Shown: one piece after another, positions 25,932 through 27,507 of the stretch
Numbering within the stretch: the first letter of the stretch is position 1
Layout: each line of letters starts with the position of its first letter
NCBI GenBank assembly: GCA_036504215.1
Contig: DASXVO010000028.1
Coordinates: forward strand, 62,001 to 126,000
Direction of reading: 5' to 3'
Origin: Vicinamibacterales bacterium
GTDB lineage: Bacteria; Acidobacteriota; Vicinamibacteria; Vicinamibacterales; Fen-181
DNA: 64,000 nt
Position numbers and translations under genes: made by a program
Notes under the pieces: model-generated
What the model saw: the letters and a program-made list of their open reading frames with translations, nothing else
Databases searched by the model: none
Told to the model about the DNA's origin: nothing

Positions 25932-26726
25932 TTACAATGCCCACTCCCCGCGCATGACGACCTCGGCCCAGCCCGTGAGATAGAGACCGTCCTCGAGCCA
26001 CTCCACGCGCTGGGTGCCGCCCGGTGAGACCACCTGGACATCCCGGTTCGCGCCGCCGAACGCCGCCGACGCCACGGCCGCCGCGCACGCGCCGGTCCCA
26101 GACGCCATCGTCGGCCCCACGCCGCGTTCCCATATCAGGATTCGAACCTGGTCCGGGTTCTCGACGTGCGCGAACTCCACGTTCGTGCCTTCTGGAAATG
26201 CTTCGTGGTGCTCGAGGGCTCCACCGAGGCGGTGCATGCGCTCTTCACTGAGCGAGGTCTCCAGACGCACGCACTGAGGGTTCCCGACGCGAAGCGTGAC
26301 CACGCGGAGCGGCGCACCCAGGACGTCGAGCGTCGTTTCGACGGGGGTCGTGGGGCGCCCCATCGCCGCACGGAACACCCAGTGCGCACCATCGCGACGA
26401 AGCAACTTCAGGCGCTTTTCGCCCGCATCGGTGTCGATGATGACCGCGTCGTCCGCCAGCAGGAAACCATGGACGTCGAGCAGCACGGCCGCCAGGCCCC
26501 GGACGCCGTTGCCAGACACCTCCGAGTAGCTCCCGTCGGCGTTCAGCAACTGCATCGAGGCGCCGCGCTGAGTACGGCGATACAGGATCAGCCCGTCGGC
26601 GCCGATGCCCGTATGTCGCGCGCACATGGTGCGGGCCACCGCCACACGGTCACGCCCATCGATCTGCGTGTCTTCGACGTAGAGGAAATCGTTGCCGTAT
26701 GCGTGGGCCTTGACGACTGGGACCAT
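25932..26726 (-). CDS. DapF-family epimerase homologue with Ser in both catalytic positions
   Basis: The 264-residue protein aligns by motif with diaminopimelate epimerase, which converts LL- to meso-diaminopimelate for lysine and peptidoglycan. The fold signatures AHAYGNDFLYVE, NADGSYSEVSGNG, GNPQCV, FPEGTNVEFA and ERGVGPTMASGTGACA are all present. In proven DapF enzymes the two acid/base residues are cysteines (QCGNG and ACGSG/ACGTG). Here both are serine, S71 and S209, read directly from TCT codons. The His of GNPH is Gln. The ATG at 26726 has GGAGG upstream and lies 4 bases after the methyltransferase stop. It may be a divergent active subfamily or have another substrate. Confidence 0.8.
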   Translation of the reverse strand: MVPVVKAHAYGNDFLYVEDTQIDGRDRVAVARTMCARHTGIGADGLILYRRTQRGASMQLLNADGSYSEVSGNGVRGLAAVLLDVHGFLLADDAVIIDTDAGEKRLKLLRRDGAHWVFRAAMGRPTTPVETTLDVLGAPLRVVTLRVGNPQCVRLETSLSEERMHRLGGALEHHEAFPEGTNVEFAHVENPDQVRILIWERGVGPTMASGTGACAAAVASAAFGGANRDVQVVSPGGTQRVEWLEDGLYLTGWAEVVMRGEWAL

Positions 26727-26730
26727 CGGG

Positions 26731-27507
26731 TTACCTCCGGCAGAACGCGAGCAGGTGCCAGCCATATCGGCGCACGAGCGCCCGCGGCATGGCGTTGAAC
26801 GTGCCGACGAAGAACGTGTTGTAGAGCGTCCCCTTCCACCCCTTGTGGAGGCGCGATTTGACCGGAAACCGCTCGGGCACCAGTTGTACGTCGCTGAACC
26901 CGGTCAGCAGGGCGCGGAACTCCGCCGCGCTGTACTTCCGCAGGACCGGAGCATCCTCGTGCTCGAGGTCGACTTTCATCAGCTTCGAGAGCAGGTTCAG
27001 CCACGAAATCCGGTTGTAGACCTGGAAGATCGCCTGGCCGCCAGGCTTCAACACCCGGCGGCACTCGTTCACCAACGCCTGGGCGTTGGACGTGTACTGC
27101 ACCACGCCGTGCGCGAAGACGAGGTCGAAGGCGGCGTCGGGCAGCGGCAGATGCTCCCCGTCGGCCACCACCAGCGCCGCGGACAGCTTCCGCTGCTCGA
27201 AGTTCAGGCGAGCCAGGTCGATTGCGGACGGCGCGATATCCACGCCCGTCGCGATGGCGCCGGCCTGCGCGAACCGCACCAGGTCCACGCCCGTGCCGCA
27301 GCCCACGTCGAGCACATTCTTCCCGCGCTGGCCGTCGAAATCCACGAGCCGCAGCAGGTGATGGAGCTTGTCGAAGTGGTATTCGTCCAGGTCCGCGAAG
27401 AAACCGGGCGACCCTGGCGGGTTGCGACTGATGTCGAGGTCGTGGATCCGACTGTTCCAGTAGGTTCGCACGAGGTCGTTCGAGTCGAGAGCTTCAGATG
27501 TCATCAC
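26731..27507 (-). CDS. Class I SAM-dependent methyltransferase
   Basis: The 258-residue enzyme has the SAM-binding motif NVLDVGCGTGVDLV, an acidic residue after strand 2 (GVDIAPSAID), VADGEHLPLPDAAFDLVFA and HGVVQYTSN, all typical of the UbiE/Methyltransf_11 group. The substrate is not evident; the C-terminal half contains hydrophobic helices and basic patches that could bind a lipid-like substrate (inference). The frame begins GTG-ATG at 27507/27504, 8 bases after a TATAGT. It is followed by the DapF homologue 4 bases later. Confidence 0.82.
   Translation of the reverse strand: MMTSEALDSNDLVRTYWNSRIHDLDISRNPPGSPGFFADLDEYHFDKLHHLLRLVDFDGQRGKNVLDVGCGTGVDLVRFAQAGAIATGVDIAPSAIDLARLNFEQRKLSAALVVADGEHLPLPDAAFDLVFAHGVVQYTSNAQALVNECRRVLKPGGQAIFQVYNRISWLNLLSKLMKVDLEHEDAPVLRKYSAAEFRALLTGFSDVQLVPERFPVKSRLHKGWKGTLYNTFFVGTFNAMPRALVRRYGWHLLAFCRR

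Follow-up and report, generated by a model that had tools for sequence, protein, structure and literature searches.

A DapF homologue with serine at both catalytic cysteine positions: a conserved variant of diaminopimelate epimerase in Acidobacteriota and Thermoleophilia

In the textbook chemistry of diaminopimelate (DAP) epimerase, DapF, a thiolate with a pKa of about 8.5 removes a proton with a pKa of about 29, and the two cysteines are each described as essential. Two-cysteine DapF (EC 5.1.1.7, TIGR00652) has been solved for Haemophilus influenzae, Anabaena (9mro), Arabidopsis thaliana (3ejx) and Corynebacterium glutamicum (5m47), and characterised DapF works by a thiol/thiolate pair (PMC12039745). 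Here, we analysed a window of 64,000 nucleotides from a Vicinamibacterales bacterium (Acidobacteriota; contig DASXVO010000028.1, positions 62,001 to 126,000), which contains a dapF homologue with serine at both of these positions. An earlier note on this DNA had pointed out the two serines, each from a TCT codon, and a GNPQ motif in place of GNPH, and the translation bears this out, with EVSGNGVRG around Ser71, ERGVGPTMASGTGACA for Ser209 and VGNPQC around Gln151. The note was also right that the other landmarks of the family are kept, as far as the eight non-Cys residues essential in C. glutamicum DapF are concerned; what it described as a single odd protein is instead a widespread natural variant.

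Several relatives of the DapF fold provide points of comparison. The 4-hydroxyproline 2-epimerase B9JQV3 (Ser93/Cys), of the proline racemase superfamily, has a related fold and is active in 1,1-proton transfer, and it thus sets a precedent for serine in one position (PMC4113996). It differs from the window protein in that only one Cys is replaced, the substrate is another one and the sequence is distant; other 4-hydroxyproline epimerases of this fold are 16-19% identical to the window protein. A Ser/Thr dehydratase relative (PMC4113996) resembles Ser/Ser DapF in having no Cys at either position and a serine as the proposed base, but it catalyses dehydration, not epimerisation, and requires a beta-hydroxyl leaving group. 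A review (PMC8142540) also covers racemases that have Thr in place of one Cys and others that use a serine base together with pyridoxal phosphate. The same substitution at the same helix N-caps is found in laboratory mutants of DapF (C73S/C217S; 2q9h, 2q9j) and of the histidine racemase HisR (C67S/C209S; 9cr1, 9cr6); in contrast to the natural variant, these are engineered, changed at one site each and strongly impaired (HisR, PMC11602996). HisR/CntK, O-ureidoserine racemase and PhzF share a DapF-like fold, whereas their substrate pockets are different.

Active-site residues and predicted fold

The alignment of the window protein to the solved DapFs is unambiguous, with SGNG lying over CGNG and SGTG over CGTG. 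The two-cysteine signature, CGNG and (A/S)CG(T/S)G, is replaced by SGNG and ASGTG. The Ser/Ser observation is real, far beyond chance or sequencing error. Ser/Ser DapF shares with two-cysteine DapF the equivalog score, the fold, all DAP-contacting and non-Cys essential residues, the pathway context and the miaA-dapF-hflX locus of actinobacteria. In contrast, both acid/base cysteines are serine, and GNPH frequently has Gln, Asn or Val in place of its histidine.

Against TIGR00652, the equivalog model for DapF, the window protein reaches 189 bits (cut-off 114.65), and all 48 aligned members match this model. Against NF038284, the bifunctional DapF/glutamate racemase model with a cut-off of 350, it reaches only 65 bits. 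In the AlphaFold2 model (mean predicted local distance difference test score, pLDDT, 97.1), Ser71 and Ser209 directly precede helices 72-86 and 210-223, which places the acid/base positions of the predicted DapF fold at two facing helix N-termini. The closest solved structure is Anabaena DapF 9mro in its closed, inhibitor-bound state (TM 0.92). Profile matches to HisR/CntK are barely significant (6jiw, E 3e-4; 9cr1, E 8e-4) compared with that to DapF 9mro (E 3e-93), and the match to PhzF is likewise barely significant. For the proline racemase superfamily, Foldseek gives an E of about 1e-13 at 13-19% identity, versus 5e-30 for DapF. Collectively, the protein is a DapF by fold, sequence and context, yet it lacks the two-cysteine feature and is a Ser/Ser variant, not a standard member.

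Alanine mutants of C. glutamicum DapF at N15, N74, N85, N159, N194, E212, R213 and T223 are without activity (PMC5296763). The window counterparts are N12, N62, N73, N149, N182, E200, R201 and T211, and these residues are kept in 202-203 of 203 Ser/Ser sequences (99-100%), T211 as T or S. In Anabaena DapF, the distal L-centre of DAP is bound by the same Asn/Glu/Arg set (PMC12039745). Among 229 Ser/Ser rows, 130 have Q, N, V or F in place of the GNPH histidine, whereas this histidine is missing from only 4 of the 150 rows that retain a Cys at one or both sites; some genomes were entered twice in these counts. Moreover, the serines at both sites are encoded by TCN and AGY types of codon. As the residue is constant while its codons vary, the residue itself, not the codon, is under selection, and a recoded codon was rejected on the same observation.

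Spread and origins of the Ser/Ser form

Within the Vicinamibacterales, all relatives examined in which both motifs could be aligned are Ser/Ser, with serine at both sites in all loci L003-L032. In a first set of relatives from the order, all motif matches carried the SGNG serine, from TCG, TCC, TCT and TCA codons. Most loci from other families of Acidobacteriota are Ser/Ser and a minority are Cys/Cys. Over the whole phylum, the non-pattern loci L004-L131, selected by best score and family and not at random, comprise 86 Ser/Ser, 39 Cys/Cys and 3 Cys/Ser. One genome of the phylum, G190, pairs very closely in the DapF tree with a named Acidobacteriaceae isolate. Nearly all Cys/Cys loci of the phylum belong to another DapF subtype, with the motifs GVPH and ERGVEGET. 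Cys/Ser DapF was seen in Acidobacteriota at L072, L111 and L115.

To cover a wider range, we used a degenerate DNA pattern for DG(S/T)EAxxSGNGxR with a TCN serine, which selects for the first serine only. Of the fetched loci, it matched 29; each of these has Ser at site 1, and no Cys/Cys locus was matched. A scan of the genome collection gave at least 120 matches. Among the matches listed, the unselected site 2 was also Ser in 108 of the 111 that span both motifs, and the sources were Acidobacteriota (Terriglobia, Bryobacterales, Blastocatellia and Aminicenantes), the actinomycetotal class Thermoleophilia and one Chloroflexi record. The Thermoleophilia Ser/Ser clade includes Patulibacter americanus DSM 16676, a Conexibacter and Solirubrobacterales. 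Viral contigs scanned with the same pattern gave no match.

A survey of 110 DapF loci of Actinomycetota (the 30 best-scoring and 80 picked lower in the ranking) contained 70 Cys/Cys, 17 Cys/Ser, 15 Ser/Cys and 8 Ser/Ser forms, which indicates that serine at either catalytic position is a recurrent natural state. The Cys/Ser loci (L346, L348, L349, L365, L369, L375-L378, L380, L382, L388, L389, L409, L411, L416 and L422) carry the motif IWERGAGETLASGSGSCA in many cases. The Ser/Cys forms (L317, L324, L356, L359, L362, L367, L379, L398, L399, L401, L402, L406-L408 and L412) echo the active Ser/Cys hydroxyproline epimerases. Further Ser/Cys loci are L133, L148 and L240, the last being the Chloroflexi record; L148, from a record titled as a Bifidobacterium breve metagenome-assembled genome (MAG), groups with a freshwater actinobacterium MAG, and its title is probably misnamed. 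The literature searched contains nothing on a serine DapF, and GapMind lists no DapF gap for Acidobacteriota. Ser/Ser DapF is thus a conserved, widespread natural variant that is apparently undescribed in that literature.

For the origins of the Ser/Ser state, we built a careful maximum-likelihood tree of 75 sequences with the three diagnostic columns left out. The Acidobacteriota Ser/Ser proteins form one clade (support 99/99), the Thermoleophilia Ser/Ser proteins form a separate clade adjoining Cys/Cys rows (support 100/100), and a third Ser/Ser clade (L392, L198, L394 and L396) lies among mixed forms. On this tree the state requires at least 4 changes (bootstrap range 4-5). A single origin of all Ser/Ser forms occurred in 0 of 200 bootstrap trees and was marginally rejected by the approximately unbiased (AU) test (p 0.047), and a joint Acidobacteriota and Thermoleophilia Ser/Ser clade was not rejected on a broader, quick tree (p 0.84). 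The two clades are likely, but not proven, to be independent. A phylogenetic test of coupling between the two sites had fewer than six informative pairs. Additionally, one Ser/Ser DapF with GVPF (L110, genome G060) belongs to none of the main Ser/Ser clades; it lies close to the GVPH/ERGVE subtype and probably represents a further separate origin.

Function of the Ser/Ser protein

The 5.9 Mb assembly, with an estimated completeness of 100%, contains no DapF besides the window gene. The second dapF for which the earlier note advised looking is therefore missing from the genome, and the paralogue drift that it would have suggested is in effect excluded. Similarly, a re-search of 33 genomes through their loci found exactly one DapF in each, at the serine locus. 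DAP dehydrogenase is the only known route around DapF; such a bypass was rejected, since none of the 38 Ser/Ser genomes tested has this enzyme over the cut-off. It is present in only two Cys/Cys genomes, G131 and G219.

The demand for meso-DAP can be read from the wall and lysine pathways. MurE carries DNPR, the motif that marks the meso-DAP type, in 15 of the 16 genomes tested, the window genome included. All Solirubrobacterales are reported with meso-DAP at position 3 of the peptidoglycan (PMC3035278). A lysine- or ornithine-type wall, which would make DAP dispensable, was rejected in view of the DNPR MurE in the window genome and 14 others and of the meso-DAP walls of Solirubrobacterales. 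LysA is strong in the window genome and in Patulibacter, and some other Ser/Ser genomes are without a match. The window genome also holds a second LysA-like open reading frame (ORF) with an in-frame TAG (C39:63812-64960, plus strand), a decayed or misassembled decarboxylase. The DapF reaction should thus be needed in Ser/Ser genomes, and the window genome has no other DapF or DAP dehydrogenase for it.

The neighbouring genes point in the same direction. In Thermoleophilia, the order is miaB-miaA-dapF(Ser/Ser)-aminotransferase-...-hflX, with the aminotransferase directly after dapF. Two of these aminotransferases were tested, and both score above the cut-off of NF006756, the model for LL-DAP aminotransferase (dapL). 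The Ser/Ser dapF thus has as its neighbour the gene of an enzyme that is predicted to supply its substrate. The gene order miaB-miaA-dapF-dapL is shared by L352, a Cys/Cys relative, so that nature itself offers the two active-site forms for comparison in one setting. The genes that follow dapF in Terriglobia are an LD-carboxypeptidase-like gene and Mpl, which encodes the meso-DAP tripeptide ligase and scores above its cut-off.

Because of the conservation, the single copy, the pathway and operon context, the predicted fold and the invariant DAP-binding residues, we consider that the window gene probably encodes the organism's working LL-/meso-DAP epimerase, in which Ser71 and Ser209, or at least not Cys thiols, would act in 1,1-proton transfer. 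We infer activity of the protein, DAP as its substrate and proton transfer by the serines themselves. The earlier note had left three options side by side, namely an inactive protein, the use of serines and another substrate; conservation, copy number, pathway, neighbours and DAP residues favour activity on DAP with serines and weigh against the other two. LL-DAP would be bound as in canonical DapF: the N-termini of both helices would receive its alpha-carboxylate, and Asn62, Asn149, Asn182, Glu200 and Arg201 would hold its distal L-centre. The C-alpha proton would be exchanged between the faces flanked by the hydroxyls of Ser71 and Ser209, which would replace the thiol/thiolate pair, while the kept helix dipoles and the five-donor carboxylate site may lower the C-alpha pKa.

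Several points weigh against a serine-based epimerase. Serine hydroxyls are much less acidic than thiols, and the weakest link is the formation of a serine alkoxide without a neighbouring base, a difficulty sharpened by the frequent loss of the GNPH histidine; no new invariant base was seen among the 203 Ser/Ser sequences. The Cys-to-Ala change abolishes the activity of C. glutamicum DapF (PMC5296763), and the C67S and C209S forms of HisR are greatly slowed (PMC11602996). No Ser/Ser racemase or epimerase of the DapF fold is described in the literature searched, which also contained no report on the wall chemistry of Vicinamibacterales. Finally, the window genome has no DapD, no DapL over the cut-off and no DAP dehydrogenase (the last two being further checks advised by the earlier note), which leaves a gap at the source of LL-DAP.

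For the benefit of the serines, we infer resistance to disulfide inactivation as a possible advantage. This cannot be the whole story, since the Aminicenantes, which are largely anaerobic, are also Ser/Ser. Disulfide inactivation is known in C. glutamicum DapF (PMC5296763). In a wider picture, which we regard as evenly balanced, much of Acidobacteriota, as well as Thermoleophilia, would obtain meso-DAP for wall and lysine from a thiol-free, cofactor-free two-serine epimerase that arose repeatedly, with Cys/Ser and Ser/Cys forms as possible stepping stones.

Among the alternatives, a catalytically dead DapF, which would serve in regulation by binding DAP or a partner protein (RppH, for example) while an unrecognised enzyme makes meso-DAP, is unlikely. 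It would agree with the near inactivity of Cys-to-Ser and Cys-to-Ala mutants of characterised relatives, with the complexes of E. coli DapF and RppH (PDB 6d13) and with the pathway gap in the window genome. However, the substrate and catalytic-loop residues are all kept at 99-100% across the 203 sequences, the gene adjoins the LL-DAP aminotransferase or Mpl, and the unknown epimerase would need to have arisen in every Ser/Ser lineage. The last point also applies to an enzyme that has the DapF fold but acts on another substrate or catalyses another reaction, for example the racemisation of another amino acid or an elimination; we judge this alternative rather improbable. The fold has indeed switched before (histidine racemase, O-ureidoserine racemase, PhzF, and hydroxyproline epimerase/dehydratase with Ser/Cys or Ser/Thr), but the readers of the distal L-amino acid, N62, N149, N182, E200 and R201, are essentially invariant, all 48 aligned members score as DapF, and the dapL neighbour and the lack of another DapF in genomes with LysA and DNPR MurE point to DAP.

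In a third alternative, the protein is an active DAP epimerase whose serines are mere spacers, and the proton is relayed by the thiol of C35 or C152, by Glu200 or by ordered water. Of the 203 Ser/Ser sequences, 198 retain C35, 146 retain C152 and all retain E200, and in one structure of the H. influenzae enzyme a water contacts both Glu208 and the proximal amine (PMC12039745). In contrast, Cys/Cys forms retain C35 equally well, 57 of the 203 (about a quarter) have no C152, three sequences lack both, and no invariant candidate column for a replacement cysteine was found among the 203. Moreover, the two positions are held as serine and not as any small residue, and such a relay appears quite improbable. 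An artefact, pseudogene or relaxed paralogue, for which nothing speaks beyond the loss of the catalytic residues, has a negligible chance and is already refuted by the single copy, the full-length genes in unrelated assemblies and the deep conservation across phyla.

If the Ser/Ser DapF is active, the same catalysis would have been built from hydroxyls, probably more than once, which would overturn the view that a thiol/thiolate pair is required. The native Ser/Ser, Ser/Cys, Cys/Ser and Cys/Cys orthologues would then make the question "why cysteine?" directly testable, and major soil phyla may escape inhibitors of DapF that target thiols, such as aziDAP. If it is inactive, a widespread unknown route to meso-DAP exists. 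Automatic annotation by TIGR00652 is blind to the difference between Ser/Ser and Cys/Cys forms.

The dapF locus in the window

The ORF upstream of dapF (Table 1) is probably co-transcribed with dapF, and relatives of this ORF flank the gene at 14 of 29 loci from the order. The arrangement is an order-level one, without obvious meaning or known link to DAP.

Table 1. Coordinates of the Ser/Ser dapF gene, its diagnostic codons and the adjacent ORF in the window
Feature	Position	Strand	Remarks
dapF homologue, Ser/Ser variant, 264 amino acids	25932..26726	(-)	TIGR00652, 189 bits; AlphaFold2 model
Ser71, codon TCT	26514..26516	(-)	Replaces catalytic Cys73 (H. influenzae) / Cys83 (C. glutamicum); N-cap, helix 72-86
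Ser209, codon TCT	26100..26102	(-)	Replaces catalytic Cys217 (H. influenzae) / Cys221 (C. glutamicum); N-cap, helix 210-223
Gln151, codon CAG	26274..26276	(-)	GNPQ instead of GNPH
SAM-dependent methyltransferase-like ORF	26731..27507	(-)	Ends 5 bp before the dapF start; from ORF list

For the dapF start, an in-frame ATG at 26765 gives a reading of 277 amino acids; the alignment of relatives begins at 26726.
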